A stretch of DNA of 64,000 bases, from contig OV121085.1 in NCBI GenBank assembly GCA_921293015.1, forward strand, positions 23,387,911-23,451,910, given 5' to 3'. Both the position numbers and the translations under genes were made by a program. Position 1 is the stretch's first letter. The number at the start of each line of letters is the position of its first letter. Source of the DNA: Phorcus lineatus (taxonomy: Eukaryota > Mollusca > Gastropoda > Trochida > Trochidae). The notes under the pieces are model-generated. The model searched no databases. It was not told where the DNA came from and was given only the letters and a program-made list of their open reading frames with translations. Shown one piece after another: positions 9,103 to 51,104 of this stretch.

Positions 9103-10567
9103 GTAATGGGGGCCTAAGAGTAATTGAGGGGTCCGGATGACGGGGTCTCTAAAACAACTGTAAAATGCAACCTAGTCCTTCAAAAAAGCCCAAATGGGAT
9201 TTTTCTTATAGCTGAGATAATTTTCTATACAATGATATATAACGTGAAACCTTTTGAGTATAGTTGCAGACCGATTTATCACCTTGAAAACGTCTAATTT
9301 TCAAGTTTGGTTGCAGTCCCCTATAGGCAACTGCAACCAAATTCTTGAAACCATCAAAATACACGTTTTCATAGAACAGAAGAGTCTTGACTAAACATAA
9401 TTTGGTTGCAGAGAGAAACTAAACTATGATATCGCAAATGTTGGAACTTTACCTGGCTGTTTATTTACATTTCAATGAAACATCGGCAACTAATGTCAAG
9501 CAAGCTTCGGACTGTATTCACGCTACCATGGAAAAACTCAATAGGATTTCACCAGAGGCACCAAAATTCATACTCGGCAACTTTAACTCTAGTGATTTAA
9601 AGCACGTCCTGCCAACTTTTCACCAGTATGTAAATTGCCCAACAAGATCAAGGAATACCATTGACTTATGCTATGGAAGTGTGAAGGACGCTTACAAATC
9701 TATTGCTAAGGCTCCTTTGGGGACATCTGATCATAATACAGTCTACTTAGTGCCATTATATCGTCAGAAACTTACGTAAGAAAAACCTGTTGTAAAATAT
9801 GTAAAATCTTGGACAAAAGAGTGTATTGATCAATTAAAAGGATGTTTTGATTGTACAAATTGGGATGTATTTGAAAATGATTGTATAAATTTAGATGAGC
9901 TCACAAGTTCTGTAACTTATTAGAGTCAATTTAAAAAAAAGTGTAAATTTCATGTCCGGGGTTGTAATAGAAACATTTGAAAAATAATACTTGATTTTTT
10001 TTTGTCAAATTGATTGAACCCAATGTCTTCTACCACCGACACTCCATTAATCAACAATATTTTTGTTAATTATAAATTTTAAAGCAGTTTAAGTGTAAAA
10101 ATGAAGCAAAAGTGACTGTCCCACAGTCAGGATCGAAATTTTTGATGATGAAATGAGGGATAAATAAATTGACTATTTAAATTTTTTTATTCTCTGAGAT
10201 AAGGAAAAAGACGAACTAATATAAGCAATATCACCAATTCAAAATATATTAAAACTTTTTCAATATTTTGGATATTTTCTTCCTATTTTTGACTGTCCCA
10301 AGGGTCTGTGTCAGTTCCGTTACCGTAATGAATTGTATGAGGAAATGATTGCTCCCTTATTTTCAACAAACTACTACCTTCCATTGTGGGCCTCCTTGTT
10401 CTTGCCTTGCCAATGTAGGGTAGAATGACTGCACTGAGAGAAGTTTTATTGAGAAATTCAGCTTCAGGTGTGCAGCGTACGTTGTCTAAGAAATTTTAAA
10501 GTCAAATCTGTTACCATGGTTTAATCATATGAGCAGCGATGTACTCAAACACAAGTAGATTCTAAAC

Positions 10568-13442
10568 TGACCATTTTCCAGTTTTGACGTTTAGAGTTAT
10601 CTGCCCTTGACCGCGGGCAACGTCACGCTAAGCGTCAATGGTGAGAAGTAAGGGGGCCCACTTACGGGTGTTGAGAACTTGGCTTTATAGCATAAGAAAG
10701 TCGTAGTTCAAAAGGATAAACCAGTATTTAAACTTGTTTAACCATTAATATGAATATTTCAATTCTTTCTCTAACAATTAAAAATCAAATAAGCCATTTA
10801 TTGTGATAGCGCCTAACCCTACGTAGGCCTACTTATAGGGATATAGTACCGAGGTGGCATTATGTGTAAGCCTACTTGATAAGTCTTTGCCAAAAACAAA
10901 TTCAAGAAATGATGAACGGCGAAACTGCTATCAAATATTACAAGGTTGCTTTCATTCCGACTGGGTTTAAATTATCTAAATGCGTTAAATTATTTCAAAC
11001 GATTGAAGACGTTCATAAAATTCCTTGTCGATTTATAAAAATTATCCGAAAAATGCATTCATTGCGCATTTTTTGAACAGATTCGCAACTTATTATCATG
11101 CCTTGACTCGTTAGTTTTATAACATTCATTTAGCATGGTTAGCCCTACATTACAGCGGGGAATATTTATCATACATATTTTTTTGTAATTTGTAAGAAGA
11201 TTGTTTAATTTCAAATCATCCAACACACAGGAAGAAAATTTAGCCATCAAATATTTAAAGTAGAAATACACGTTGCATATTGTTTACGTTGATATTCATA
11301 TGACTAACATCAATTATTTATTTCACTTATATTATAAAAAGCATTAATTATGCAATCGTTCTGACAAAACATGGATTTAAGTAAATAATTCTATTTCTTC
11401 ACACGAAAATGCACAACATTGGCAGTCATTGCGGAGAATGGACACGTCGGTATTACAATATGAATATTCCGTTGACCGTTGGTCGGAGTATGATGATTAA
11501 TACTGAAAACTTATTCTCCAAAATTTGAGATTGTGTTTATTCTTTCAAAATTGCAAACAGCCATTATTTATCCATACTTTGTTATTGTAGCGAAGTGACA
11601 TACTCCACATCATATCAACACTCGCGGTGAACTGTCGTCATTCGCAAACCATATGATATTATAATTAATCATTATCATTTAAACATATAATTTAATATTT
11701 ATTAAATTAGTAAGGGTTAATGTTTATTATTATGATTATAATTATGACCGTCGGTCAACAGTTTCACATACGGATTAACTTTCCAGATTTGTGTAGAATT
11801 GAAGGTCTTCTTACTGACGGCACTAATGGCTGAATATTGCAAAAGTTTTACTTTTGCAAACATTTACATTTTATCAACAGGTTAAGACCACGATGATGCA
11901 TACAACAGGTCTAACTGAAGCATGAAACCAGATTTGCTCTTAGTGAAGCAAGTTTTTTTTATAAAACCCAGGTTTAATCCTTTGCATGTAGACTGAGTCT
12001 CACATTTTTTACATTTTTGAAGCAAGTTTGAACTGCGACAGGTTCATCATCACCACTCGGTAACGTTCGGCGTTTAATGTGGAGTGGGCGATTAAAGCTA
12101 GTTTAGCCGTATGCTAAACTCCGTGGTAAAACTGTTTCTCTATTAAAGAAACAAAAGTGCCATTGAAACATCCAAATTCTGCATTAAACCACGAAAATGT
12201 AAACATGCTAGGGGGTAGATTTACCATTTATCGATGTAAAGCGTGTTAAAATAATTAAAATAAATCATGAAAGTGATTATTTCCAATTTTAATCTCTGAT
12301 CTCAACTGCGTCAATCGAAGTCCGAATTAAGTAGCATGCAGGTTGTTTTCGGTTATTCCAATGCGGAATATAGTAATGAAATGAAGAATAGTGTTAAACC
12401 TTGACAATGTTAAACCCCTTTCATTAATTCGGGCATATGAGTCTTACTTTTTTCTTACTTTTATGATCGTCAAGGGGGAGTACATTACTGTTTGTGTGAA
12501 TATGGCCAGTATATTTCTTTCATTACCGTGCAAGCAAAATCTACAATCGATTTGAATATTCTGAAGATTATTATGAAGATTGCAGAATTTTTTCTTTTAT
12601 AAAAATCCAGAATTTTCTTTCTCATAGCATTGAGTTAAGCGATTGTTATAAAAGGCCGAATCTTTTCTAAAAGCGTTCAATGCACTTGATAGTCGAATAA
12701 GTTAATATTTTTTCTATCCAGATTAAACGTGTTTGTAAAATAATAAAAGCTCGTTCAAATGAAAAATATTAAATGAAAGCTTGAAAATCACATCTGTAAC
12801 GTAAGAAAATATATGGTTGCCGCTTTCGAAGTAGGCATGTACCCATGCCCCTTAAATTTACAAGTTGTGAGGTTCTGCTCTTGATTTTTTACCCAATGCA
12901 AAAGATCAGATATGTAGTTAACTGCGCAAATTGCAGAGTTTTGTTGTGCCCCTTATTTTACTTTCAGCCTTTAATTTAAGTTTAAAAATTTGGAGAAGCC
13001 GAATTTTTATTCTGGTCGGATCGTTTTCTTTATCCTTATACACGTTTCAATATTGGTCTGATTATTGAAAGTTTAACACAAAACCACACCTTGTCTTCTA
13101 AAAAATTATTATTTAATGTTTTTTTGCACCAGTAGTTTAATTAAAAATGATACATGTACCAAGTCTTATGTCAGTACCACTCTAAAAAACAGTTAACCAT
13201 TTAATAATTATTATGAACATATTCGCCTTCATTGATTTTTTCATGTTAACTTATACGGTTTTCAATCATTTGTGACCTTCCATAGTTCGAGGGGATGAAA
13301 GATAAGATCTAGGCGAGCATTGAAAGTAGACCAAAACAACGTTCAACTGAACGTAAGCTTGGACAGCTTGCCCGCGGTCACGTGACTTTTCAAAGGGACG
13401 TCACTCTAAACCGACTCGTTTCACGAAACTGGAAAATGGTCA
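10568..13442. repeat. Nested inverted-repeat pair inside element 1
   Basis: The left arm 10568-10625 (TGACCATTTTCCAGTTTT, later GTTTAGAGT and GACCGCGGGCAA) is repeated inverted at 13366-13442 (TTGCCCGCGGTCACGTGAC ... CTGGAAAATGGTCA). The arms have small indels. The 2.9 kb between them has no recognisable gene. No convincing target duplication was seen outside. It is likely a further insertion, possibly a foldback or TIR element. A smaller inverted pair (CGTTGACCGTTGGTCGG near 11472, inverse near 11746) lies within it. Confidence 0.55.
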
Positions 13443-13531
13443 ATTAATGCTCTATAAGGCACGATTTGAATGTGGTATGGCTTTGGTTGGAAATGGGAGT
13501 AATCATTGTTTCAACATTGATTCAAACAAAA

Positions 13532-14512
13532 TGTCAAATCTGTTACTGTCATTACTGTTACTGTTCAAACTGGTAACAGATTTGACATAAATTGTAAACA
13601 GTTCTGACATCTCACTGTGAATCATGTTACGTAAAGCTGACTGGATATATAAATAGTTTTTGTCTTAAACTTAGACCTCCCCTTGATATTTTTAAAAGTG
13701 ATTTCAAATATTTAAAGGTTAACTTTTGTAAAACAATTGGAGCATCGGACGACACAAACTTTTAGGTAACACTTTTGACGTAATGAAGTAACAGTTTTGA
13801 CATTTGTTTACATTTCCTCCACTTATTTATCTTCATTAAAGAATCAAGTTGTTTTGTTCTTATCTTGTAAAAATATCCAGTTTCAACTATTCATCTGTTT
13901 TTAAAACTCACAATAAACATATATTTTCACCATTCATAGATTTTTCGACATTGGGTAACAGATTTGACATAAGTGGTAACAGTTCTGACATTGCAATGCT
14001 TATTACTCTTATTACAGCTGAATTCATCATGAAATATCTCCCTCTTTTTGTATCTTCCTCTAAATTATAAGAATTATGTTTATATATATATTTAAGTAAA
14101 ACTTTTGCATAACAATGGAGATATTTATTTTTGGTAACACTTTTGACATTATGTAGTAACAGTTTTGACATAATCAAAAACGTGTTTACATAATTGTCTT
14201 AAATTCAAGTTTTATCAACTTTTTCTTCTTCTATGTATGTCATTTCCATATATTTTACTGCTGACAGGACTCCTTAGTTTCAATTGTTATCATTGTGTAT
14301 AGATTTTCTGAAAGTGGCAACAGGTTGGACATTTAAATGGTTATTTTACAACTGAAGGTGTATTTTCAATTATGATCTAGTTTGTTTGACTTACATTTCA
14401 TCCTTAATTTCTTCTAAGTATTTTACATGCTCTAAATTTTACTCTTTTGTAAAAATTGTTGGTTCATTGATGAAAATCTATTTCTGACATTAATACTTTT
14501 GACAGATTTGAC
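13532..14512. repeat. Motif array, left block (GTAAC-N6-GACA pairs) of element 1
   Basis: After one copy in the opposite orientation at 13532, pairs of GGTAACAG-NNNN-TGACAT motifs start at about 13572, 13763, 13955 and 14133. A degenerate copy follows near 14314 and a degenerate pair near 14490. Copies within a pair are 20-22 bp apart; pairs are about 180-192 bp apart. The sequence between pairs is much less conserved than the motif. Confidence 0.85.
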
Positions 14513-14519
14513 TTTTTGT

Positions 14520-14940
14520 TTAGTTCAGATGTAGAACAGGATCTGCATTCAAATGAGAGCTTGGTCAATAGTGATGAGAGAGCTAACTATTTTAGGGGTA
14601 TTCTGAACACCTTTGAAGCTTGCAAGAGCTTTTGGACCTCAACAATCCATGCAACCCGAGGGTGAAATGATTGCCCTAGAAAGCAACTATGAAGTATATT
14701 GTGACAGTCTTGATATCTTTCCACAGGAAGATATTTGTGATTCTCCATTCTTCAAAACAAACGTTGGTCATCTTCAGCTCCTGATGATACTCACTTCTAA
14801 CCTGATAAGAGAACTGCTTCTTCAGCTCCTTATTTTACTCACCTGTCACCTGATATGATAACTGCTTCTTAAGCACCTGATGATACTCTTTTGTCACCTG
14901 ATATGACAACTGCCTCTTTAGCCCCTTATGAACACTTCTA
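14520..14940 (+). pseudogene. Possible decayed coding fragment with a short tandem repeat, inside element 1
   Basis: Two overlapping frames read like coding sequence: SSDVEQDLHSNESLVNSDER at about 14523-14582, and QPEGEMIALESNYEVYCDSL near 14650-14710. Both are rich in acidic and polar residues. A tandem stretch follows, with CACCTGATATGATAACTGC-type units (about 14780-14935). I recognise no family. It may be a leftover of the element's own gene or a captured host fragment. Confidence 0.25.
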
Positions 14941-15267
14941 ATTCAAATTTGATTCAAATTTTTGTCAAGATACCTGAGACCACTAACTAATAAAATCAAT
15001 CATAGTCAAAGAACTTAATATTTTATTGGTTTTCCTGAAGTAACAAAACTGTTTCGTGCTTGATTTCTTTAAAAGGTTTTGTTTTGCTAGTTGCAAGTTC
15101 AAAAGTGTTTCTTGAGATCAACGCGTTTTCAAAATTAACATCGTTTTTTATTACAGTATTTCAAGTGTTAAGGTTTCTTTTTAGAATGTTGTATGTTTTA
15201 TGACAAATATGTTTTTCTCAATCGTAATATATGTTTTGGAAGCGTTTAATCATTATTTTTCAGACAA

Positions 15268-16043
15268 AGGTAACAGTTCTGACAGATAGCTGATGTCAAA
15301 TCTGTTACCGATTTAATATTTCAATCTTGATTGAAAAGATTTAATTGACAGTCGTATTAGAGGTAACTTTCAATACCAAGGATATATGCCATGATCAAGC
15401 AAATCACTACAGTGATAATTTGAAGAAAATAAAACCAACCTTTTTCATTTATGTCAATACTGTTACCGGATGTGTCATTTCTGTTACTGGAAACATTTTT
15501 ACTTGCCAACAAGTCTTGTTTTATTTATGTAAAAACATGTAGAAAGAGTTTATGGTGATATAATTCCAAAAGATAAATGGCAAAGTGTTATCAGAATATA
15601 TTTTAAGGGTTTTCTATGTAACTTTTCAGGCATCAACAAAATAAACTTTCCATTCTGTTACCGCCACTGTCCAAACTGTTACTGTCAAATGTCACTACTT
15701 TTATTTGCTAAAAACTATGATTGCGTTATCAAACACATGTTAATTGCAATTATTTTGAAATGGTGTTGATAAGCATGGTTAGGCAAAATGAATATGAAGA
15801 GTAAACAATTATCATGCAGCAATTAATAAATATATAACAAATGTTAAACCTCTGTTAAGTGTCCTTTAATGAGTTCAGATACTGTTCAATTATTTTATTA
15901 AATATTTTGTAAACTTTTACCATTCATAAAGGCACTTAATCATTAAACGTGTGTATTTCCTCCTACAAGTCGTATAAATGAACAAAAATTTTAAAAATTT
16001 ATTATTAAAAATCGTTTTATAATATTGGTAACAGAACTGACAG
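15268..16043. repeat. Motif array, right block (mostly TGTC-N6-GTTAC) of element 1
   Basis: Motifs occur at about 15268 (GTAAC form) and 15295 (TGTC form), then 15452/15472, 15665 and finally 16026 (GTAAC form, about 200 bp from the right end). Most are in the opposite orientation to the left block. Spacing between clusters is again close to 185 bp or multiples of it. Confidence 0.8.
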
Positions 16044-16644
16044 ATGACCGCCAATTAGCGCATTTATTGTTAATTGCACGTTAATTAGGCTAGGTTAAGC
16101 GTGCATATTTCACATATGTAAAATTACACATTTTTCTTTAACTTTTTTGCAAATGAACCTCAAAATTAACAACAAAAATGTTTTGGGTTTTCGCTACTTG
16201 AAAATAACACTATTTTTGAAATTGACTCATTATATAAATTTTTGTGTAGACAATATTGTACCTCTCAAATGTGTTAAATTATTTCCAAACAACAAGCCAT
16301 GGGTTACTAAAGAGTTTAAATCAGTGTTGTATGAAAAGAGAAGGGCCTTTTGTGTTGGAGATAAAATTAAGGTTAAAGAGATTCAGAAAGAAATAGTTGC
16401 TTTAACAAGAAAATGTAAAGATGAATATAAAACAAAGATTGAAAGACAATTTTCTGTTAACAATTTGAGGAATGCTTGGAATGGCATCAAGACTATCATT
16501 GGATCAAACAGCAGACCTAACAAGTTACAATCAAATGATGACTTAGTATTTGCAAATGAGTTAAACTGATTTTACTCTAGATTTGATAGTTGTAATTTTT
16601 CAGAAGAAAGAAACAAAGTACTTGAATCCCTTCCCCCATGTGAG

Positions 16645-18030
16645 GTGTTAGATATTTCTAAAGATGATGTGATAACGTCTTTTGCTAAGATAAATTCACA
16701 TAAAGCCTGTGGACCTGACAATTTGCTAGGTGTAGTTCTAAAAGAGTGCAGAGTGCAACTGGCTGGTATTTTCCAAAAGCTTTTTCAATTATCATTAAAT
16801 TTCCATCATGTTCCCATTCTTTGGAAAACATCAAAAATTATCCCATTACCAAAAAAGAAAAACCCCTCTGTCAATAATGATTACAGACCAGTAGCTCTCA
16901 CCTCTGTTGCTATGAAATGTTTAGAACGAATTGTTAAGAATTTCTTGTTAAAGGATGTGATTGACGTTTTAGACCCCTATCAATTTGCATATAGAGCACG
17001 GCGTGGAGTAGATGATGCAACAATAACTCTGCTTAATAACATCTATAAACACTTGGAAAATTATAGTTCTTATGTCCGAATAATGTTTGTTGACTTCTCC
17101 TCTGCTTTTAATACGATTCAGCCACATCTGTTACTTGATAAACTTTGTCATATGAATGTTAACTCAAATATCATTAGATGGATACATTCTTTCCTTGTTA
17201 GCAGACAGCAATTTGTACAAGTCAATAATGTTAAATCTTCAACTTTATGTACATCTACTGGTGCTCCACAGGGTTGTGTTGTTTCGCCAATTTTGTTCAT
17301 TTTGTACACAAATGATTGTGTCTCAAATGCTGATTCGTGTTTTACCATCAAATTTGCTGACGACGCTGCAGTTGTAGGCCTAATTAGAGAGTCAGAACTT
17401 GCCTATAGATCCGAGCTATCAAGATTTGTGGATTGGTGTAAATCTAATTTTTTATATTTGAACGTTCAAAAAACTAAAGAAATGATAATTGATTTTAGGA
17501 GAACTAAGTCAACATTAGAATCTGTGTGTATTGATGGCAATGAAATAGAAAGAGTAAATGAATATAAATACTTAGGTACTATCATTGATTCTAAACTCTC
17601 TTGGAATGAGAATACTGAGAAAATATATAAGAAAGGACAACAACGTTTACATTTCTTGTGGAAACTAAAATACTTTAAAATAGATCAAATCATCTTGATG
17701 TTGTTTTACAGAACCTTCATTCAAAGTGTCCTTACATTTAACTTTTTAAGTTGGTTTGGGAACCTGTTTGTTCAAAAAAGAAACAAATTGATAAAAATCG
17801 TGAATACCGCATCTAAGATTATTGGGCTTCCTATTGAAACGATCAGCAGTTTTTATGAGAAGCAGTTATCGAAAAAAGGAAACAAAATTTTGGGAGATTC
17901 TTCCCATCCACTTTTATTAGAATATACAACATTACCTTCTGGACATAGGCTGCGTATGCCGACTTTTCGAACAAACAGGTTCCGCCAATCATTCATTCCC
18001 TGCAGCATTAGAGAAATAAATTCTGCCTAA
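16645..18030 (+). CDS. LINE reverse transcriptase domain (461 codons open)
   Basis: This is the longest open frame in the window and the best-preserved part of the LINE. In order: fingers (NDYRPVALTSVAMKCLER, ~residues 75-92), the block A aspartate in FVDFSSAFNT (~147-156), GAPQGCVVSPILF (~209-221), the FADDAA catalytic pair (~239-244), and thumb and connection (EYKYLGTIIDSKLSW, ~307-321). It shares its frame with 16147-16569, separated only by the TGA at 16567. The ATG at 16645 is simply the first Met after that stop and not a biological start. The enzyme would copy LINE RNA at a nicked genomic target. Confidence 0.88.
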   Translation: MLDISKDDVITSFAKINSHKACGPDNLLGVVLKECRVQLAGIFQKLFQLSLNFHHVPILWKTSKIIPLPKKKNPSVNNDYRPVALTSVAMKCLERIVKNFLLKDVIDVLDPYQFAYRARRGVDDATITLLNNIYKHLENYSSYVRIMFVDFSSAFNTIQPHLLLDKLCHMNVNSNIIRWIHSFLVSRQQFVQVNNVKSSTLCTSTGAPQGCVVSPILFILYTNDCVSNADSCFTIKFADDAAVVGLIRESELAYRSELSRFVDWCKSNFLYLNVQKTKEMIIDFRRTKSTLESVCIDGNEIERVNEYKYLGTIIDSKLSWNENTEKIYKKGQQRLHFLWKLKYFKIDQIILMLFYRTFIQSVLTFNFLSWFGNLFVQKRNKLIKIVNTASKIIGLPIETISSFYEKQLSKKGNKILGDSSHPLLLEYTTLPSGHRLRMPTFRTNRFRQSFIPCSIREINSA

Positions 18031-24510: not shown

Positions 24511-24578
24511 TCGCGGAAATGTTTCTTTCAGTACACTTTCGGCAATCATGCTTGATTACTAGGGTCAAGTACTAAACA

Positions 24579-25425: not shown

Positions 25426-25429
25426 CCCT

Positions 25430-34540: not shown

Positions 34541-35755
34541 AGGGAAATTAAATTTAACATTTGGGCAGGAGTGGAAATAACCCATTGCCTGACGCTCCAG
34601 TCCAGTGAAGTTATTCTTTCGGGCAAGTCAATTTGTTGTCAACAGTTGTCCGGTAGACTTTCTCATCGTGTTCAGTTTTATTTAAATATTTGTATGAAGT
34701 AAATAAGAAACAAAACTTACCTTGAAATATTCATTTGATTTAAAGCAGTAAATAAAATCGAAATCTCATGTATTTTGTCTTATGTCCGTCAATGTTTTGG
34801 TTACAAAGTAACCTAGAGTTACCTTTCTTGGATCAATGAAGCGTGCGCACATAATTTTCTCAAGATTTCTTCTCTCAGCAATCATAATTTCATTGCCTTG
34901 CGCTGTTGAGAGCTAGTTCAAATTCTTGGAAAGGGACGATGTGGTGAATTCATATTCAAAACAAAACTTGTACAAAGAGACAATAACTTTTTATAGAAAA
35001 TCCTACAAATTACAAATGACATAGATGGACGTAATTTCTAATTTACTAAAATAAAAAACAATTAAGTTTTTTACAACTTATTTTGTTAAGATTTACGGAG
35101 GTACGATGTTGTTTTTGGATACAAATTTACTACAGAAAAAGCTGCTGTGTGCGATTCTAAAATTGTGTGTTTGCAAAATATCAATATAGCTCTTAATCGA
35201 TGGGTTCTTTTGATTCATTACACATCGAAATTACATGAATAAACAAAATCCAATAAAGTTGATGTTAACAAACCCAATTTATGATTCAGAAAAAGTGAAA
35301 GGACATTTCAAACGTGTTCGGTGGACACATTTCTGTGGGTTTGGTATTATTCAAATAAAAAAGTCATGACATGTGAGATTTGTTTTAATTATCCATCTCT
35401 GTCCATAAGGGAATAGAAGTACATTTAGACAGACTACTAGTATTTGAAATCACATGTTCTGTAAACAAAGTTAGATTTGTGTAAGGTTATATTCAAGTGA
35501 TTCAGATTCTAACCTTCTTGACTGATAAACCTTAAAGTTTTTTACATTATACTGTGTGATTAAAAACTTTTTTTATGAGGTGATTAAAATCACTGAGACA
35601 GTCTAATAATAAGAATAACATGTCTAATACACTGCCAAACTTACCTTATTCTGATTTATAGGTTCAAACAGAACACTTCCACAATACGTTTCATAATTTT
35701 TATTTATAAGAATTACTGGTAATTCAGAACAATACTTACCTGAATGGTTCTTTTT
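34541..35755. other. Intron 2 sequence, no gene seen
   Basis: AT-rich intronic DNA with no supported element or exon. Confidence 0.45.
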
Positions 35756-36986
35756 GTCCCCCGCCGCAACACGGAACAGGGGACTATGAATTCAGCGGCG
35801 TCTGTCCATACGTACGTACGTCCGGATTTTTGTTAACGCGATAACTCATGAAGCTTAGCACCTAGAGTGTTCATATTTGGTGACAGCTTTCAATGGAGGA
35901 AGACTCAGACGCCAGTTGATTTTGGTGACCTTGACATCATTTTCAAGGTCACCACGACACTACGTACGTCCGGATTCTTGTTAACGCGATAACTCATGAA
36001 GCTTAGCACCTAGAGTGTTCATATTTGGTGACAGCTTTCAATGGAGGAAGACTCAGACGCCAGTTGACTTTGGTGACCTTGACGTCATTTTCAAGGTCAC
36101 CATGACAAACTCGTGAAGCTTAGCACCTAGAGTGTTCATATTTGATGACAGCTTTCAATGGAGGAAGACTCAGACGCCAATTCACTTTGGTGACCTTGAC
36201 ATCATTTTCAAGTTCACCAAGACACTACGTCTGTCTGAAATTATTGTTAACGCGTTAATTCGTGAAGCTTAGCACCTAGAGTGTTCATATTTGATGACAG
36301 CTTTCAATGGAGGAAGACTCAGACGCCAGTCGACTTTGATGACCTTGACCTCATTTTCAAGGTCACCACGACACTTTGACCAATTTCTAATACATTGTTA
36401 ACGTGCACCTAGAGTGTTCTTATTTGTTGACAGCTTTCAATGGCGGAAGACTCAGACGCCAGTCGACTTTGATGACCTTGACCTCATTTTCAAGGTCACC
36501 ACGACATTTGACTACTGTGTAATACATTGTTAAAGCAGTATCTGGTAAAGCTTAGCACGTAGAGTGTTCATATTTGGTGAGAGCCTTCAAGGGAGGAAGA
36601 CTCAGACGCCAATTGACATTGATGACCTTGACCTCATTTTCAAGGTCACCACGACACTTTGACCAATTTCTAATACATTGTTAACGTGCACCTAGAGTGT
36701 TCTTATTTGTTGACAGCTTTCAATGGCGGAAGACTCAGACGCCAGTCGACTTTGATGACCTTGACCTCATTTTCAAGGTCACCACGACATTTGACTACTG
36801 TGTAATACATTGCTAAAGCAGTATCTGGTAAAGCTTAGCACGTAGAGTGTTCATATTTGGTGAGAGCCTTCAAGGGAGGAAGACTCAGACGCCAATTGAC
36901 ATTGATGACCTTGACCTCATTTTCAAGGTCACCACGACACTTTGACCACAGTGTAATACATTTTTCATGCAATAACGGCGGGGGAC
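35756..36986. repeat. GTCCCCCGCCG-bounded minisatellite element, copy 1 (about 8 units)
   Basis: It opens with GTCCCCCGCCG, which can itself fold with CAGGGGAC 18 bp on, and closes with CGGCGGGGGAC. Between are about eight units of ~115-150 bp sharing TTAGCACCTAGAGTGTTC, GGAAGACTCAGACGCCAGT and GGTGACCTTGA...TCAAGGTCACC. The stretches around 36370-36650 and 36655-36935 are near-identical ~283-bp dimers, which points to recent amplification. The shared tail runs to about 37030. Open stretches over it are spurious. Confidence 0.88.
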
Positions 36987-37309
36987 ATTGCCATTTTAGA
37001 GGCAAACACTTGTATTTTACTAAACCTGGTACCCAAGTACAGTAGCAAATAAAGTTTTTACCCCTGATTGGTATTCCTGAAAATGTTATTGTTTGAATTA
37101 GAAAGTAGTTTTTGAAATAATGTCTTTCACTAGCTTAAGCCTCTCGGTGGATAGATTGCAGGGGTATGCGAGCCATGCTCACTTTTTTCTTGTTTATATA
37201 TGGGAGTACTATAAGATAAAAACCTATACCTAAACATCATTCTTTTGAATATAAACCAACGTAGTACTCATGTTCTATTAATAAGTTGACCTTCCATAAC
37301 CCTTCTACT

Positions 37310-38551: not shown

Positions 38552-40387
<1,836 letters not shown>

Positions 40388-40388
40388 A

Positions 40389-40520
40389 GGGGGGCAGGAT
40401 AGGGCAGTGGTTAGCGAGTTCAGCTTTTGATCAAGGGGTCCATTGTTTAAATCTCGCCAGGGTCTAGGCAACTTTGTCCACAAGATGTCAAGTTCTAATG
40501 CACTGACAATTTTGGTGATG
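40389..40520 (+). repeat. tRNA-derived SINE
   Basis: The head reads GGATAGGGCAGTGGTTAGCG, with box A TAGGGCAGTGG at 40400-40410 and a box B-like GTTTAAATC at 40445-40453. The box spacing is right for Pol III. The anticodon arm is imperfect, so it is a SINE head and not a working tRNA. A related head is at 46139. Confidence 0.65.
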
Positions 40521-40589
40521 TATTTCACCTTATTATTTAACGGGTATGTATCCTATTGTTGATCATCAATACAAAGGCTGAGCTACAGA

Positions 40590-41040: not shown

Positions 41041-41228
41041 GTCTGTTTCCGGGCCATATCTCAAAAACCGTTCAAGAATTTTTTTATGAAACTTGGTATG
41101 TAGTTAGGTCTAGTGGTGATGTGGTGCCTTTTGCTATTTGCTGGTTTCCATGGAAACAATTTGAACTTGGTGCATATAGGGTGGATGCTTTCGTTTCCGG
41201 GCAATATTTAAAAAAACGATCAATATTT

Positions 41229-41761
41229 GTCCCCCGCCGCAACGCGGAACGGGGGACTATGAATTCAGCGGCGTCTGTCCGTACGTACGTATGTCCGGAT
41301 TCTTGTTGACGCGATTAGTCATGAAGCTTAGCACCTAGAGTGTTCATATTTGGTGACAGCTTTCAATGTAGGAAGACTCAGACGCCAGTCGACTTTGGTG
41401 ACCTTGACGTCATTTTCAAGGTCACCACGACACTACGTCTGTCTGAAATTATTGTTAACGCGATAACTCGTGAAGCTTAGCACCTAGAGTGTTCATATTT
41501 GATGACAGCTTTCAATGGAGGAAGACTCAGACGCCAGTTGACTTTGGTGACCTTGACCTCATTTTCAAGGTCACCACGACACTTTGACCAATTTCTAATA
41601 CATTGTTAACGTGCACCTAGAGTGTTCATATTTGTTGACAGCTTTCAATGGCGGAAGACTCAGACGCCAGTTTACATTGATGACCTTGACCTCATTTTCA
41701 AGGTCACCACGACACTTTGACCACAGTGTAATACATTTTTCATGCAATAACGGCGGGGGAC
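41229..41761. repeat. GTCCCCCGCCG-bounded minisatellite element, copy 2 (about 3 units)
   Basis: Same ends as copy 1 (GTCCCCCGCCGCAACGCGG; CGGCGGGGGAC) and the same unit, but only about three units (near 41327, 41476 and 41614). It sits inside another tandem repeat: GGTATGTAGTTAGGTCTAGT and GGTTTCCATGGAAACAATTT occur before it (41095, 41143) and after it (41803, 41864). It is therefore an insertion that carried its own array. Confidence 0.85.
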
Positions 41762-42204
41762 ATTGCCATTTTTGAGGCAAACACTTGTATTTTACTAAAC
41801 CTGGTATGTGGTTAGATCTAGTGATGTAGTGGTGCCTTTTGCTACTTAATTTCTAATTTGAATTGGTTTCCATGGAAACAATTTGAATTTAGTGCATATT
41901 GGGATCTGTAGATGCTAATTATAATATTTTGGGACTGTATGAGTATCAAATGTCACATTCCCTACAATAAGAAAGTTGAGGATTATATAAAACTCTTCCT
42001 TATGCACCATTGAACTTGTATATTTCATGAGTCAAGTTCATTGATGCTAATATATTAACCTTTTTATTGAATGTTTGGTATGAATTGTTTCTGGTATAAG
42101 TGGCAATAAAATGATTAGGTTGGTTTAAAAGTTGGAAAGGGGGACATCACTGTGCATCACATGCACATATTTCTAGTTAGTGCTGTGATACCCATGGGGC
42201 ACCA

Positions 42205-42905: not shown

Positions 42906-43515
42906 AGGGTATAGTCTACCCAGAAACAAATGTTTCAAGAATTTTCTCATTTTTGGTACATAAGTACTTTTTAATGTGCCAAATTCAAAAATGAAATAAA
43001 ATTAGGGGTCACCTGACGATTTAAAGAGTTATGTGCCATTGAAAAATTGACCCCAGTGGAAAAACCTGAAATATATATATGTCATTTGTCTAGGTAATAA
43101 ATTATTAATATATTATTGTTTTTAAATTTTTTGGGGTGTTTTTATTATCAGCTGATGATGAACTTGATTTCAATTCATACTAGTATGAAAAAATACCAAA
43201 ATGATGAATTTTAGGAGGATTTTAATTTCTATATCATGATTTTTTATATATAATTTTTTCATATAAAGCTAAATGAAACTTCTTTTTGGGTTCAACAATT
43301 TTATGAAAATTTTGGAAAGGAAAATTTGGAATTTGTCATTACTTATTCAAAAATATATAGGGGTCACTGAATGATTTTTTTTGCTATGACGTTTTAAAAA
43401 TGTAAATTGGCGTCATAATTGACCCGATTGTGGCCTAGTGCTTGACTGACTGAATGAATGACAGTTTGGGGAAATCGAACGGTGTGTATATCTGCAAAAT
43501 GATGTGATTTATTTA

Positions 43516-43644
43516 GGAGATAAATCCCTTCTGTTTTTTATTTTGGGGTTGTATGCCGAGCTTGCGAGGTTTGAAATGTTTATTTAGGGGTGAAAAATGC
43601 ACGACATACAACCCCAAAATAAAAAACAGAAGGGATTTATCTCC
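43516..43644. repeat. Foldback element with perfect 40-bp arms
   Basis: The left arm 43516-43555 begins GGAGATAAATCCCTTCTG and the right arm 43605-43644 is its exact reverse complement over all 40 bp. The 49-bp spacer contains GAGCTTGCGAGGTTTGAAAT. Right-half relatives lie at 52318-52402 and, weaker, 44198-44290. The perfect arms suggest a recent insertion or ongoing arm homogenisation. Confidence 0.88.
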
Positions 43645-46137
43645 ATTCTAACACGACTAATTAGAAATATAATGAGGAACTAATTTGCCTTGCGCAACAA
43701 CAATGTGATTAGGTCGAACCAGTACAGACCGGTTCCGCTTGCTTTCGAAACTACGGTACAGTTCATTTTCAAAGAACACGCTTCAATGATAAAAAAAAAT
43801 ATCAAAACATAAACCAACAGGTTTTAAATAAAACCCTTAAGTATTTATTTCATTGAGGATAGAATCAACAAAAGACAATTTTTTTTTATTCTGTCAGTTA
43901 CGTTTTTCACGTAAAAACATAGGACACCTATCACTCCTATCAATACCGACAAGGGCTGACCAAATAAAGGGACGTTACTCTAAAAAGAAGTTGTTTACTG
44001 CTAGCGCTAACTTCTCACGCAAGATGTGAACTGATTGAATAAACGATCAAGAAAGCTTTATAGTTTGTCATGGTTGAATACACTGTCTGGAAATGTGGTC
44101 ACTTATGAATGAGAGGGGGGAAGGGAAGGAAAGTTAAAGAATAACGTACGTCCCCTCTGTTCACTTGACTTGCTATATTACCGCGCATTACGGTAAGAAG
44201 CGAGCTCGGTTTGAAATTAAATTTAGTGATAAAAAAATAAACTACTTTGACTAAAAATATACCACAGGATGGATTTATCTTCTAAGTTTCATTAAAAAAA
44301 TACAATATTCTCAATGTCTGTATAAAATTGATTTAAAATTAATTTTACTGTTGTCTGTAAGGCGATGAAAACAGTAAGTTCAGCGAATGGAGTTTGTAAA
44401 CGTGCGAAATAATCACTCCAAAATTGATTGTGTTAACCAATCAGAAAGCGGTATTTTCATTCTAGTTTTCGTGTCATGTTAGAATTACTTATTATACACA
44501 CATGAAATAGTTTATAAATATGGGTAAAATACTTTTAATGGATATTCTTGAAACACAAGTTCAATGGGTTTTTTTTAAATTATTACTGCCGATCATCATG
44601 CAGCCTTGTCTCCTCTATAAATTTCATCGTTATTCAGATTTCGGGCCATGGTCCGTGCATTATGATTTTATCAAGCCTGGTGTAAGTTAGGGTAAATCAT
44701 AACAAAACCCATTTATTTGAATGAAATGTTTTCTAAAAATATATGAAGATGGATCACAAATTTAGTTTTGGATAAGGCAGGTTTTCGAGCTACAAACTTC
44801 ACTGTCTGCGCTCACTTCCGGGTAGTTTGCTTCGTTTGCGATCCGTTGAAGTGCAGTAAAATCATGAATAACTTTTCAAATAAGTCTGTAAATAACAGTT
44901 ATTGTCGACTTTGTTTTGTTGAAAACCATCCAGAAAATTCCTAAGTGAAACGTGTGTGTGTAACAGAATATTTGCAATCAAAACAGACGTCTAAGTTGTG
45001 TCATGGAAGGCTATGAACGTTTTGTAAAATGTCAACTAGATATAAAATAGTAGTTGTATACTATCATTTGAGAAATTGGTATTTTCGGTAATTTCTCAAA
45101 TCTCTCCAAAAAAAGAATTTTAAGAGTAAACTTGATGAATTCAACCAAATTTATAAAAACTTTGTTACAAAATTGTGTAAACAAATTACCTCAATGCTGA
45201 CAGAAAATGCTTTGGCTAGTGATCATATTTATTACCAAGAATGACATACAGCAAAATTTAAGAGTTCTTAGAGTGTTAGATTCCCATGATTGTTTGGAAG
45301 TTTGTAGCTGGTTATTGTTAATACCATGAGATAACCTGAAATTTAAAGAATATAATCACATATTTTGATTTTGTATCATTTGAAAAAAACCCTCACATCA
45401 TCAAAAACATAATTTCTTCAGATATATTTCCATACCCAATAATGTGTTCCTTGATTAAGAGTAGGCATATATATCTTGAACAGTTAAGTTTATAATTAAA
45501 TAAAGGTCAACCTATAACTCGCACATTAATGGCAATTTCTAATGAAAAATCTTACTTGAAACATGTAGAATATATCTAATTTCTGATTCTCAATACAATC
45601 AGGGTCTAGAATACAATCCACACAGGCCTCGAATAGATACTAGGGGGAGTACTAATAGAATTATTACGGTGGGGTTATTTTCGGGGAAATATGGAAAGTA
45701 CATCCTCAATTTTTTGTCGTGGATATAACCTTATGTGTGAAATAAAACATTGTTAAAATTTAACAATTCAAATTGTGTAAGAAAATATACACATTGAAAA
45801 ATAAGAAGATTAAATACATTGGAAAATTAAGCCTACCTCGTAAGTTACTGAGCCTCACGTTGTGAAAATCGACGAGCTTGCTATTAGGTTAACAGACGCA
45901 ATTTTCCACCGCTCTCTTTTTGAGCTAGGCAGAAATTTCATTGTTGAAATGAGCATAGCGATAAAACTTGACTTGTTTGCAACTCTGGGTAATTCATTAT
46001 ATAGTTGTTTTCTCTGAGGACTCGCTATTGTCTCAAACGATAACATGAATTAAAATTTTTATTTGCGACATTTACAATTGATATCCAGTCGAATCATCGC
46101 AAAACTGTTATGTGTGCAGCGACTTGTCAAGTGATCT
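43645..46137. other. Intron 3, middle part, no gene seen
   Basis: AT-rich. It contains a degenerate relative of the foldback right half near 44198-44290 and otherwise nothing I can support. Confidence 0.4.
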
Positions 46138-46138
46138 G

Positions 46139-46215
46139 GGGGGGCGGGATAGCGCAGTGGTTAGCGCGTTCGGCTTCGGATCATGAGGTCCGCGGACACA
46201 TGGTAACGTATTTAT
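46139..46215 (+). repeat. tRNA-derived SINE head, second copy
   Basis: GGGCGGGATAGCGCAGTGG with a consensus box A (TAGCGCAGTGG, 46150-46160), followed by TTAGCGCGTTCGGCTTCGG. Box B is weak (GAGGTCCGCGGAC). It is related to the 40389 head and probably a SINE fragment. Confidence 0.6.
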
Positions 46216-46259
46216 CTCGACGAGGACCCTTATTGTATGCTGTAAATATGGCTTGAAAG

Positions 46260-46600
46260 ATTGGATGGGTCAAAATGGCGGCTGATCTTGTCAGTATAAC
46301 TTTTTTATTTATCAAGTTACAAAAATGATTTTTACATCACCATTTAAAACTCAAAAAGTATAGTCTAGTACCATGCGACGGTACTAGACGGTAAATGCAG
46401 ATTAACAAAATTAAATAAACATAACGAGTATTGCAGGGCTTATTCAATTTTGATTGTTTGGTCACGTGACCTCGTGTACACGTTCCACCTTGGAAACGTT
46501 CGATTTGAAGCGGCGCTAAAATCTCCATAGTTTTCTGACCATCATGGCCGACCGTCGTGAAAGGAGCGAGTTAGTTTGAAAGTGTCGGGCGCACAGAACA
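46260..46600 (+). promoter_or_regulatory. CpG-richer segment with YY1-, CLEAR-like sites in intron 3
   Basis: AAAATGGCGGC (46271-46281) matches the YY1 consensus, and GTCACGTGAC (46461-46470) is an exact CLEAR/E-box palindrome of the type bound by TFEB/MiT factors. Two short reading frames begin here: MAADLVS... at 46274, followed by a GTATAA donor-like site, and MADRRERSE... near 46543, followed by GTTAGT. They could be first exons of an unrecognised nested gene or chance. A minus-strand open stretch at 46609-46821 has no known family. Confidence 0.3.
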
Positions 46601-47589
46601 TGCAGGCATCACTGCATAATGCGCTGGTTGGTATGAATATGAAAGATTATGAATGAAGAGTCGGTGATGACCTCGACTGATATGTGTATAGATTGGTTTT
46701 TTGGTTCATCCTTCCAATCTCCAGCTGGCTGATGGACAACCCTGCTGCGAGCGAGTGAACCGACAGGCCGTGAGCAAGCCTTTTGACTTGTTACGATTTT
46801 TTCTCGGCACCAGCACTTCATTTGTAGAAGAGCTTACTCTTGTTCAAGCAGTGTGGTTATAAGATATGACTTTAATAAATGGAAAGATACACTTAGCGTG
46901 TAAAGGTAGGGTTCAACAAACCACCGTAGCGTAGCCTTTGTTTACCTAACAAGGGAGATAACTCTTCACAGTGCGTCCTCTCTCGTTACTAGGGTTGCGC
47001 GTAACCCAATTTAACAGAAAAATATACCTACGGCACGTGACCGCTTTTGGCCAATCAGTAGCCGACATTGCTGTCCAAGTCGAGATAAGTGCATTTAACC
47101 ATCTGTCCATGACTCATTTATGTAGATCAAAAGCAGCTAGTAACCGTTACGTTACTGAAGAGGATTAAAGATATTGGGAATGTGTCGTATATATCATATA
47201 TCATTCTATATCCTGATCAGTAGAGCATAATTATTAAAAACTTACCAGTCTTGACTTCTATTTGGCCTATTGATCACATAGATCTGCATCCCAAATAAGC
47301 CCTCTTTTTAGGTTGATTTCTAGCTTCTTTTAGGGAAACCAAAGGGTTGCGTTTAAACCTGTACGTAATCTCAAAATTAAAAAAAAATCCCATAAGTTTA
47401 CTGAATTTAACAAGCCAATTAATGATATGATTTACAAAGTAATCTACCTGAATGATCAAAATCTTTTTTTTGCCAATAAGGCATGATTCCTATTATTTCA
47501 AACAATATTCTATTATTATGGATCATTATTATTATTGAATAATTCAAATGAATCACATCAAATCCAAGTAATCATAATTGTTTTATCAA

Positions 47590-48239
47590 GGAGCTGATAA
47601 GCTGTTGTCAATTTTTCCCATTATCTTTTGGCGGTGCCTGACACAGAATCCCATAACTAAAAAGACATCACTAACTCTATAAATATAAACCCTGAAATTC
47701 TGTCTCAGGAGATTTTCATGATTTATGCAACTCTATAATTGAACACTAAAGAAGCGGTGTTTCCTTCATAATATTTTTACTTACTAGTATTACATTTTAT
47801 TTATAACATTTTTGCAGCGTTAGTTGTATCTTTATTTCCTCAAGCGCATATACAATATGTATATCAAAATGAAGAATATTTTTGTCAAAAGTTGCAGAGC
47901 ACACCACTTGCTTATGGAAATACGAAGTGAAAAAGTAGTCCGATTTGCGACACTTCTTGTGCCTTCATTTATTTATGGGCATATCTGATCGATATATTGA
48001 ATTGAAAAATATCATTTCCTCTTTATTGAGAGTTAAAATTTAACAAAAACTGCTAAGCGGTGTAGAAGAAAAATTTAGTGCGAAAGAAAGGTACATGAAA
48101 ATCGAGCTATAGATCACTTGATAAGAAAAGCAACACAAGTGCCTTTTGTGCGGCGCTTAGTGTATCGCTATTTGTTTTAGGGCATATACAGATTATATAT
48201 GGAATTGTAAAAAATTTATTCCTCTTGACAATGATATAA
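47590..48239. repeat. Long intronic repeat, copy B, left part
   Basis: Shares ATATATGGAATTG, TTTATTCCTCTT, GATATAA and TGTGCGGCGCTTAGTG-like phrases with copies A and C. It is cut at 48239 by GAGTCA element 2 and resumes at 51105. Confidence 0.65.
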
Positions 48240-48427
48240 GAGTCATTCTCAAAAGTTGCAGCTTTTTAGTATGCAAATTACGAAAAAATTGAAATACAAA
48301 TTTATGAATTGCCATTTTCACAAATCGAAAGCTATATTGTTCAGGGTCAGATTTCAAATATATATCACGCTTAATCAGGTCTTACATCTTAAGGAAGACT
48401 AATTAAGCAAATGAGAATGAAGACACA

Positions 48428-49200
48428 ATGTCTTTCCTGTAACAACACTAAATCCTCTGTCCTTTCTTTAAAATACATAATTTTGTAAAGATTTTGTATT
48501 GTTATAACCATCTTCTCAGTAACTTTGTTGCTCAAACTTAAAAAGAAATTTTAAAATTATTTTTCATGAGTAAAACTATTTTCTACACTTAGTCGGATGA
48601 AAAATTTAGATCTGTTCATATTTTGAAACACTTTTGATATCCTGTGAATTGACTTCCAGCTAAAAATTGTACTGAGGATTATTATAAGAGAATGTTTAAT
48701 TACTTTCAAGTGATATCTGACAAACATTTTTACATTTTAGATAATTAAACAAATACTTGTTGGTACTGTTACATGAAAGACAGCATTGTTATTCCAAAGA
48801 CACACATTGTTATTTGAAAGAAGATTTTTCGCATTATTATGAAAATCTATTTAATTAAAACATAAATGTGTCACCTATCTACACAGAAGGGAAGTGTTTA
48901 TGTAATTCATATCAAAACCACAGTAAACATTACATGTTATTTGTATGTTCTTAAATAAGAATAGAAGCAAGTTTCTGATTGTTACAGGAAAGACCTACAC
49001 GTGTTACAGAATGGACAATTGTCTAGTAAATTTGAGTATGGTTAATGATATAATTATGTCAGTGACAATGAAATGTTTTGACAATAAGCATTTTGCATAT
49101 GTAGTGTACTGTCATACTTAAAAGGACAATACAACAATAATATTTCATAACTTTGCCTGCTTGTTATCCCAAAGACATTGACTGTTACATGAGAGACAAT
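48428..49200. repeat. Motif array, left block of element 2
   Basis: One TGTC-form motif lies at about 48428, 189 bp from the left end. GTTAC/GTTAT-N6-GAC forms follow in clusters at about 48767/48787/48808, 48984/49005 and 49162/49183. Copies within a cluster are 20-21 bp apart; clusters are about 177-219 bp apart. Confidence 0.82.
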
Positions 49201-49279
49201 TTTTTAAAACATTTGAAATAGACGACATTGAAGAATTAATCGTGGCTCACCAAAGGAAACCTAGGACTTTTAAAAGATG

Positions 49280-49490
49280 CTAATTTGCACCAATTCAGTG
49301 TTGGCTTCACTTAATTGACCTTAAGTTCCATTGTTTTAGTGCTTTAGTCAACTGCTACAGTGAAAGGCATAGCGCTAAATCCAACTGTTTCAGTGTTGTG
49401 CTCCACTGCTTCAGTACTTAGCAAAGTACAGGCAAACTTGCTACAGTGCTCAACATAATTGCTTCAATGCTTCCTCCAACACCCACATGT
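49280..49490. repeat. Central short repeats of element 2
   Basis: Five or so loose copies of an ACTGCTACAGTG / ACTGCTTCAGTN phrase lie between the two motif blocks (about 49350, 49379, 49406, 49439, 49460). They are unlike the flanking bipartite motif. Meaning unknown. Confidence 0.55.
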
Positions 49491-49923
49491 AACTGACATA
49501 GATATTGGGTTGCTTTTTTGCAATTGTATGAAATTTGTGAAGACATAATTCCTACAAGATACCTTTTCTTGCGGCACTTCTTCAGTCAATGATATCTTGC
49601 TAATTTTTTATAGCATGAGAAGAAATTAACTTTCCTCATTCTTTTTCTTTTAGGGTCATGACATATTAAGTTTATTAAGGAGGAACATAATTATCTTAAG
49701 CGTCATGGTTATTCAAACTGATCAGTATTTGCCTATATGTCATACTTCAAGCCATGGTCAGCAAAATTGTCTTTCAAATAACAGTCTATTACTAATCATT
49801 TTATCATGAAATGTTAAAGAAAAAGACCTAAATACAGAACACAAGGTTTTCTTATCCCATTACCTTAATAAAAATTAAAATGTATTTGGATTGAAACACA
49901 AAAATTAAGGATTATAAGTTCTA

Positions 49924-50380
49924 TATTGTCTCTCCCAGTAACAGCTTCTGTCTTTTATGTAACAACTAGTTCTTACAAACTTAAAACATATAAATTATTT
50001 GGAAAATGTTAATTTTTATGCAAAACATAATTTTAATAGTCAATCTATGAGTTCCTTACAAATTCAAATAAGCATAAAACATGAAGGAATGGTGTTTAGA
50101 ATCTGATTTGTATTGAATTGTCTTTGCAGTTACACTGATGTCTTTCCAATAACAACCCTTGTGCAAAAATAGTATGATTTAATTAAGGAAAGGAAATTGT
50201 CATCCTAAATTATTTACAGAAGTTATTGGGGTTTATTACAATTTGCTTATATTTTTAAAGGTGTTGAAATAGCAAATGTGAAGCAAATAAGTATCGATTA
50301 TTCTTTGTAGTAACAATAATAGTCTTTCCAATAACAGATAAAGCTGTTACAGAAAAGACTGTTATATAAAAGACAAATTA
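49924..50380. repeat. Motif array, right block of element 2
   Basis: TGTC-form motifs are paired at about 49928/49952, 50123/50142 and 50302/50322, then two GTTAC-form motifs lie at about 50344 and 50362. Orientation is opposite to most of the left block. Clusters are about 180-195 bp apart. Confidence 0.82.
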
Positions 50381-51104
50381 CAAGTTTAATCCGTAGCAAT
50401 TAAAATTACCAGTCCCTTTCCAAATCCAGACAACATAATTGTTTTACAATTATGGTTCCACATGCAAAGCGATAAACATATCTTTGGAAGGTTGAGTATT
50501 TTTTTGTTAAATGGCGTTATTTTAAAGACATGGATGAAATATACTCATTTTTTAAAACTTTTTCATCATCATTTTCTTAAAGGGTTTTGTCTTTGACTCA
50601 ATGAGTTATCTTCATAACTTTCATCCAGAAGTTGATAATGAGCATTACAGATAGTTTTGGTTTCATATGATATGGGATCATTTATTTTTTCTCAATTTTA
50701 TGGTTCTGTTTCGGGAAAGACATTTTTCTTGTATACAAGATTAAAAGTTTAATTTTCATATCAAAATATTGCTTGAAAGATGTGAAATTCAACCAGGAAT
50801 GGGGAAAAGCTCCATATTTTATGATCACTGCAGAAAAAGATAGTTATGAAAATAAGGCAACAAAAGACGCTTGATCACAGGTTTTAGTACCTGGATACAA
50901 GGAAAAACGCCTACCCCCTTGTTGAAAAAATGAAATAAATAAAAATATGTGGTCATTTTTCTAGAATCAAAACAAACTATAAGTTCAAATATATGTTGGC
51001 ATTCAAGAAGATATCAAAATGTTTTCCAAAAAAAGAATTTTCTAGGTGTTATTAAAGACTTTACTTCAGGTACGGGAAAAAGCTGCAACTTTTGAGAATG
51101 ACTC

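Follow-up and report, generated by a model that had tools for sequence, protein, structure and literature searches.

Several systems are known in which short protein-binding sites are repeated inside mobile or repetitive DNA. En/Spm, with its protein TNPA, and Ac/Ds carry subterminal repeats bound by an element-encoded protein, the gypsy insulator is a cluster of sites for the host protein Su(Hw) within a mobile element, and the CENP-B box of alpha satellite is a bipartite site of about 17 bp that recurs at nucleosome-scale intervals and is bound by a transposase-derived protein. Transposon superfamilies also differ in their target-site duplications (TSDs), which measure 8 bp in hAT, 7-8 bp in P, 9-10 bp in MuDR and 2 bp (TA) in Tc1/mariner, the target of Sola3 and piggyBac being TTAA. 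Sola2 DNA transposons, reportedly described by Bao and colleagues in 2009, have 5'-GRG termini and a transposase with a DDD catalytic triad. Sola2 is given 4-bp AT-rich target duplications (AWWT), including ATAT and ATTT, together with a transposase of 888 aa (PMC3627910), and Sola2 elements are reported in bivalves (PMC10294476). Here, we describe two transposons without a recognisable gene, element 1 and element 2 (coordinates in Table 1), in a stretch of 64,000 nucleotides from the gastropod Phorcus lineatus (assembly GCA_921293015.1, contig OV121085.1, positions 23,387,911 to 23,451,910; hereafter the window), and a layout of binding-site-like motifs that they share with further transposon families of the same genome.

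Two insertions with one bipartite motif

Elements 1 and 2 are transposons that inserted with a 4-bp target duplication. Both run from GAGTCA to TGACTC, and the flanks, ATTA on both sides of element 1 and ATAA on both sides of element 2, are exact, as are the coordinates. The window holds 14 GAGTCA/TGACTC pairs spaced 0.3-9 kb apart, and equal 4-bp flanks, expected by chance at 0.0059 per pair, are found in only two of them, which are the two elements that the original prediction had delimited in this way. Element 1 lies in a long interspersed nuclear element (LINE) reading frame with RVT_1 downstream (Pfam search); when the LINE flanks are joined with one ATTA the frame is continuous (...TSSVTYYINFCVDNIVPLKC...), and when both copies are kept it is broken. 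Element 2 has a perfect 28-bp inverted repeat and is inserted in an interspersed repeat with other copies in the window.

The proposed enrichment of the motif TGTC-N6-RTWAC holds against both shuffled and neighbouring sequence. Strict copies number 15 in element 1 (500 dinucleotide shuffles: mean 0.20, maximum 3) and 12 in element 2 (mean 0.09, maximum 2), with 2 in the remaining 54.8 kb, and the 29 copies in the whole window compare with 2.33 expected and with 9 in the highest of 100 shuffles. A scan of half-site spacings from 0 to 20 gave a peak at 6 alone, each other spacing yielding 0-1 copies per element, and the reversed half-site order gave at most 4 copies in either element at any spacing. 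The shuffles and the spacing scan rule out an origin of the motif by composition or chance. In addition, when 4-mer/gap/4-mer pairs with gaps of 0-14 were ranked without bias, the motif came first in both elements and fell outside the top ten in each of three other window stretches. When up to two mismatches to the consensus of the same element are allowed, 23 and 18 sites are obtained, so that the 17 and 16 copies claimed earlier fall between the strict and the relaxed counts. It had also been supposed that the half-sites look like a protein-binding site kept while the rest drifted; this reading is supported, with protein binding as a prediction, but the six inner bases are partly fixed in each element, as TGTCAAAWCTGTTAC in element 1 and TGTCTTTNNNRTAACA in element 2.

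Further regularities (a lattice of about 190 bp, groups of sites at 21-bp steps, an orientation pattern, family-specific dialects of the site and a nested element) go beyond that prediction. The usual distance between neighbouring sites is 20-22 bp, with both on one strand; a few pairs are separated by 15, 24 or 26 bp or occupy opposite strands. The clusters recur with a period of 189.5 bp in element 1 (nested length subtracted; R 0.95) and of 191.0 bp in element 2 (R 0.97), values reached by none of 5000 random placements in either case, and strict sites alone gave R 0.90 (4 of 2000 random placements as high) and 0.89 (3 of 2000). Counted from the right end of element 1 and from the left end of element 2, 10 of 18 sites lie within 4 bp of each other on the same strand; the best other shift gave 6 and the flipped orientation 7, and at a tolerance of 8 bp a 555-bp shift, about three periods, likewise gave 10. 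For 10 of 14 collinear sites, 26 of 20000 trials were as high when clusters were jittered by 10 bp and 438 of 20000 when the phase was random. The four outermost sites of element 2 all match element 1 once displaced by 559-565 bp, a distance close to 3 periods. As claimed, the two elements show little plain similarity: in the shared frame their spacers are 0.295 identical at zero offset against a background of 0.292 ± 0.010 (best nearby offset -1, 0.311), and the end segment alone aligns (z 4.1), the remaining segments giving z from -0.9 to 1.65.

Copies and dialects in the genome

Searches covered the 957.8-Mb assembly of 74 contigs, in which the window is C9:23387911-23451910. For element 2, the best 40 of 216 candidates were scored, giving 66 match rows, and 19 of the matches listed span at least 2,830 of the 2,865 bases at 90-100% identity, the copy of the window included. 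Both 8-bp ends were found in 22 of the 30 best loci, so the boundaries of this family coincide with the GAGTCA ends in these copies, and equal 4-bp flanks accompany 16 of the 22 (ATAT in nine, GTAT in two, and ATTT, ATAA, TTAT, AGAT and ATGT in one each). Across the 22 copies, mismatch to the majority is 2.1% in sites vs 3.75% in spacers, with a shifted-pattern null of 3.64 ± 0.47% and a minimum of 2.88%, which shows that the sites are under constraint within this family, designated B (element 1 belongs to family A).

Over the genome as a whole, single copies of the motif show no enrichment (25,609 + 25,996 copies vs 28,043 + 26,355 for the reversed pattern). Site doublets number 383 + 386 (769) vs 67 + 16 (83) for the reversed control, and a TGTCC...TTAC form of the doublet 113 + 103 (216) vs 0 + 0. 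Among 100 doublet matches listed, further dialects were recognised by eye, namely TGTCCAAACCGTTAC (family C), TGTCARTGGTGTAAC (D), TGTCCTGACTGTTAC (E), TGTCCTTACCGTTAC (F) and TGTCTTTCCTGTAAC (I). The proposed search for additional loci with GAGTCA-type ends has thus yielded both copies of element 2 and further dialect families. Doublet scans of 19 viral-contig stretches and 88 from prokaryote genomes gave no array with the 190-bp step; a site count over all 107 showed isolated or short-step repeats. As a separate observation, C9:22355986-22356396 holds a run of 11 TGTCC-dialect doublets that overlap, most of them at steps of 21 bp, like a doublet expanded to a tandem array.

One arm layout in seven families

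Arms were compared, oriented by their ends, in one member each of families A, B, C and E and in two members of D. In the short (S) arm, hand-tabulated site positions in families A-E fall at 186-189, 524-529, 546-550, 567-571, 741-743 and 762-764 bp from the end; the standard deviation (SD) of these first six positions is 0.8-1.9 bp, the fourth and sixth being present in four of the five families. Two copies of family F have S-arm sites at 185, 523, 544, 565, 726, 747, 768 and 926 (a third F locus has no recognisable end), and family F and a coding copy described below agree with A-E within about 6 bp. One S-arm layout is therefore common to seven families, A-F and that of the coding copy. Spacers in families A-E, to which this test was confined, hardly follow: over the ten family pairs the mean alignment z is 1.74 at the end segment and then 0.72, 0.38 and 0.22, with z 5.2 for the first 30 bp of the elements, and the ungapped identity of masked spacers, taken at whichever of nine offsets scores highest, is 0.32-0.35 (background means 0.30-0.31).

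The termini are likewise related. GAGTCA occurs in A, B, the coding copy and the right end of a family I member, I1 (GACTC then ATTT), GAGTGG in E, and GGGTCA in D and at the single end seen in C and F. Family D ends in GGGTCATTCTC with ATAT or ACAT and family E in GAGTGGATTTC with ATGT, these flanks having been chosen at the predicted ends.

A coding relative with the same design

Two site groups of the same dialect lie 5.3 kb apart on C2, and a gene was therefore suspected between them. The intervening locus, L178 (C2:4502700-4507600), contains an open reading frame (ORF) of 916 aa, behind which lies a second frame that carries 51-aa repeats, and a 99% identical copy elsewhere has a single open frame of 1227 aa. 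A first guess of the ends, made with a wrong arm layout, missed. The two arm layouts then gave a corrected prediction, fixed before the sequence was read, that placed the left end at 4501762 ± 6 and the right end at 4508598 ± 4; the left end, GAGTCATTCTCAAAAG, starts at 4501757 after ATAT, 5 bp off, and the right end, ...GAGAATGACTC, stops exactly at 4508598 before ATAT. The element measures 6842 bp with ATAT on both sides, and its sites lie at 528, 548, 569, 742 and 763 in the S arm and at 772, 793, 965 and 1156 in the long (L) arm, with no strict site from the ORF start to C2:4507600. Non-coding and coding versions of one design thus exist, and the transposase-coding copy that the original prediction had suggested looking for has a counterpart in this 6.8-kb relative, which combines similar ends and a 4-bp duplication with a transposase-like ORF.

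The 916-aa ORF had no significant match in Pfam, NCBIfam or PDB. Visual inspection suggests a basic N-terminus, Cys-rich blocks and the blocks HIDFSENY, FSDGP and GHGKGTPD, which look DDD/E-like by this inspection only. In tblastn searches it matched the second frame of I1 at 52.7% (E 1e-31), which is why I1 is not placed in the same family as the coding copy, as well as the family F loci F1 and F2 (44-51%, E 3e-7 to 3e-17) and F3 (1e-4), the best match in the E locus having E 0.39 only. Genome-wide, there are at least 62 match rows at 30-100% identity (best 50 of 546 candidates scored), and several relatives are stop-free matches within frames of 1,227-1,486 aa; viral contigs yielded no relative. 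Doublets of the form TGTCATTACCGTAAC at C2 35254092-35254144 have a 38% identical transposase copy at a distance of about 1 kb. Two further details concern the coding relative: its second frame, with the 51-aa tandem repeats, occupies L178:2980-4149, and a DGNCLPS block in the 916-aa frame resembles OTU/vertnin proteins by eye. The vertnin lead was dropped, as the literature found consisted of livestock papers.

A probable assembly platform and its alternatives

We consider it likely that elements 1 and 2 are members, with no gene recognisable, of one large group of cut-and-paste transposons whose arms are kept as a protein assembly platform, with the sites in linkers. The group has GRGT ends, 4-bp AT-rich duplications and a 6.8-kb coding form with a central 916-aa transposase-like gene, on each side of which an arm of about 0.9-1.4 kb carries 15-bp sites in 21-bp groups on a lattice of about 190 bp counted from each end, the two arms being patterned differently. 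Elements 1 and 2 may be deletion derivatives that retained both arms. As each family has a private consensus, the site groups are presumably the docking points of a protein that the element encodes, its transposase being the most likely candidate, and co-evolution of protein and sites would produce a private dialect per family. About 190 bp is a typical nucleosome repeat length, and because of this period we suggest that the step places the sites in nucleosome linkers, so that the protein would be able to assemble on chromatin and bring both arms together in a single transposition complex. The single-period gaps average 155.6 bp (37 gaps, pre-selected at 120-180 bp, so that the mean is partly built in).

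Several results weigh against parts of this interpretation. The spacers carry no intrinsic positioning signal: the 10.4-bp power of WW (W, A or T) in 37 spacers of six families is 1.58, compared with 1.53 for the remaining window sequence, and 1890 of 5000 draws reached it; the mid-spacer GC excess in the 37 spacers is -0.002, a value reached in 2781 of 5000 permutations. Elements 1 and 2 had shown a slight rise of GC at mid-spacer, and 25 spacers a weak WW hint (338 of 5000), but both were gone with 37 spacers. With these tests negative, it would be left to the bound protein, as a barrier, to impose the phasing. The geometry is also looser further in, the next S-arm sites lying at 920, 923, 912, 923, 954 and 926 in A-F, and in the L arm, where sites lie near 380, 572, 727, 742, 768 and 789, the SD is 3-12 bp (I1 is counted here and the nested length is left out for A; one D copy falls about 25 bp short, and C is positioned from an assumed left end, its left end not having been found). 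Slight residual spacer similarity between families is possible, since 2 of 10 pairs exceed the background maximum (AB 0.338 vs 0.330, DE 0.346 vs 0.338) and the end-segment z reaches 4.8 for the single pair CE. Within family B, gaps are not fewer in sites (4.8%) than in spacers (3.5%). As for the encoded protein, tblastn with the ORF at E up to 1 found nothing in the window (elements 1 and 2) or in the A1, C and D loci; a strict doublet lies within 10 kb in 2 of 5 transposase loci and is absent in 3 (C1, and C2 to 40.5 Mb). None of the 100 TGTCC doublets listed (of 216) lies within 10 kb of any listed transposase match, and no partner of dialects C and E was therefore seen.

The absence of an intrinsic nucleosome signal is also what would be expected if the arms formed an extended filament of protein and DNA, or a transpososome loop, whose own geometry has a step of about 190 bp, nucleosomes being uninvolved. 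The group spacing of two helical turns (20-22 bp) and the fixed register at both ends fit such a structure; the period itself, being that of a typical nucleosome repeat, and the mean gap of about a nucleosome core plus a few bases, though partly built in, make us doubt it. Host chromatin or transcription factors might alternatively bind the sites in an insulator- or enhancer-like manner and serve expression or escape from silencing rather than transposition. Transposons with arrays for host insulator proteins are known, as in gypsy/Su(Hw), the spacing is of nucleosome length, and the site-free stretch that begins at the ORF start of the coding copy is compatible with this idea. A single shared host factor is disfavoured because the consensus differs by family, each family being internally uniform within one genome, and the lattice is counted from the transposon ends, which have two different fixed patterns; we regard an explanation by host factors as unlikely.

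Very unlikely, in our judgment, is that the arms are old satellite-like tandem repeats with the motif as the slowest-decaying part of a monomer of about 190 bp. That length is common among satellites, and a few groups are alike beyond the motif (13760-13803 vs 14128-14171, 91% over 44 bp), but site strand changes in a fixed order, the two arms are unlike, the dialects differ, family B sites are still more constrained than spacers, and among families with spacers that can hardly be aligned the first S-arm positions agree to 1-2 bp. Pairing of the inverted arrays in a transcript is highly improbable. Left and right arrays do lie on opposite strands, but in the one piece folded 471 nt of the left array of element 2 fold like shuffles (z 0.02; 48 of 100 as good), the inner inverted pairs are mostly the motif itself, and the window has no Rfam match.

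Returning to the assembly platform, a more specific and tentative version, which we hold to be possible without favouring it, is that the group reads chromatin as a ruler, with sites in successive linkers, a complex formed only on a correctly spaced array with both arms, partly quantised lengths and private dialect systems. The basis for quantisation is that 2865 equals 15.0 x 191 and that family A differs from B by one block of 559-565 bp, nearly 3 periods. If the lattice is such a ruler, these transposons would have evolved for chromatin rather than naked DNA, and the question of how a eukaryotic transposase meets nucleosomes would become directly testable. More generally, S-arm positions kept to 1-2 bases over the first ~770 bp in five families with barely alignable spacers point to selection on geometry, and not on sequence, that is invisible to ordinary homology search. 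Protein-DNA co-evolution could be followed through the dialects of this one genome as a natural series, which might also supply orthogonal ends for gene delivery, and the layout is usable for annotation, the ends of one element having been located before being read.

Features of the two elements and of the window

The features of both elements are listed in Table 1. The nested element within element 1 contains no strict motif copy and interrupts the site array, and its two tested ORFs had no Pfam match. The centre of element 1 holds 48-bp (16-codon) repeats at 14771-14931; two ORFs there had no Pfam match, and tblastn with the ORF of the coding relative gave no match in the window. It is possible that this centre is a decayed coding remnant, and the GC-richer, repeat-bearing centres of both elements are possibly decayed coding sequence.

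Table 1. Features of elements 1 and 2 in window coordinates.
Feature	Position	Strand	Remarks
Element 1 (family A)	9923..16228	-	DNA transposon without recognisable gene, 6306 bp including nested element; by site layout, S arm at right end, L arm at left end
TSD ATTA, left	9919..9922	.	
TSD ATTA, right	16229..16232	.	
Left terminal inverted repeat	9923..9945	+	GAGTCAATTT..., imperfect; length approximate
Right terminal inverted repeat	16206..16228	-	Length approximate
L-arm outer sites	10309..10514	+	10309 and 10500; 386 and 577 bp from left end
Nested inverted-repeat element	10568..13442	.	About 2.9 kb, TGACCATTTTCCAGTTT ends; foreign to site design
Strand-switch cluster	13532..13630	.	13532+, 13547+, 13573-, 13595-, 13616+
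L-arm array	13766..14331	-	Doublets 13766/13788, 13955/13976, 14134/14156, single 14317; period 189.5 bp
Centre	14510..14960	+	Site-poor, GC-richer; one degenerate site, 14701
S-arm array	15270..15704	+	15270-/15294+, 15452/15473, 15647/15668/15690
Lone S-arm site	16028..16042	-	186 bp from right end
Element 2 (family B)	48240..51104	+	DNA transposon without recognisable gene, 2865 bp; S arm left, L arm right
TSD ATAA, left	48236..48239	.	
TSD ATAA, right	51105..51108	.	
Left terminal inverted repeat	48240..48267	+	28 bp
Right terminal inverted repeat	51077..51104	-	28 bp
Lone S-arm site	48429..48443	+	189 bp from left end
S-arm array	48768..49198	-	Triple 48768/48788/48809, doublets 48981/49003, 49163/49184
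Centre	49290..49560	.	Site-free, GC-richer, short imperfect repeats
L-arm array	49768..50335	+	49768, 49949, 50119/50139, 50300/50321
L-arm outer sites, opposite strand	50346..50722	-	50346/50361, 50516, 50708

Other repeats are present in the window. In a 3-kb scan, its other strongest signals were tandem arrays at about 35-37 and 60-61 kb. Arrays at 35753-37031 and 41226-41806 are rich in GGTGACCTTGA and its reverse complement, with repeat units of 117-283 bp, and are 94-96% alike in parts at a distance of about 4.5-5 kb; six copies of a 145-bp unit form a tandem array at 60579-61455, and three perfect TCTCGCGAGA palindromes lie within about 110 bp at 58291, 58330 and 58391, partly inside a 61-bp tandem repeat. 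In the LINE reverse transcriptase frame at 16570-18027, an ALKBH8_N domain match lies behind RVT_1.

Comparison with known systems

The duplications exclude several superfamilies. Sola3 and piggyBac are rejected by ATTA and ATAA in the window and by the absence of TTAA among 16 family B flank pairs; hAT, P, MuDR and Tc1/mariner are rejected because the duplication is 4 bp, the LINE frame being open with one 4-bp copy and broken with both. Both elements are probably Sola2-like, a placement based on the duplication type (as given in PMC3627910), the ORF length and the GRG ends. The 4-bp AT-rich duplications given there for Sola2 are seen in 16 of 22 family B copies (strict AWWT in 10 of 16) and in the coding copy (ATAT). 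GAGTCA, GGGTCA and GAGTGG all conform to the 5'-GRG terminus of that superfamily, to which the transposase-like ORF is tentatively assigned. In sum, Sola2 shares with the present elements 4-bp AT-rich duplications, a large transposase (888 aa vs the 916-aa transposase-like ORF here), short inverted repeats and GRG ends, whereas a site lattice, doublets and dialects are unmentioned in the Sola2 passages of PMC3627910. The earlier statement that no described family has this design therefore needs to be divided: the superfamily is probably a described one, but the site layout had no description in the open-licence PMC literature, at the level of search results.

The layout itself recalls other systems in part. 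With the CENP-B box it shares a bipartite site repeated at a nucleosome-scale step, but that box belongs to a centromeric satellite with alignable monomers, whereas the spacers here hardly align between families and the arrays lie in a mobile element with ends and TSDs. As in gypsy, an array of (here predicted) binding sites lies inside a mobile element; gypsy, however, uses a host factor and a single cluster, without an end-anchored lattice or dialects. En/Spm and Ac/Ds, as generally known, resemble the present elements in having many short motif copies on both sides of the gene, retained in deleted derivatives. Their motifs crowd the last few hundred bases, whereas here the sites extend over about 0.9-1.4 kb per arm in 21-bp groups on a 190-bp lattice, and the S-arm positions are kept across diverged families.

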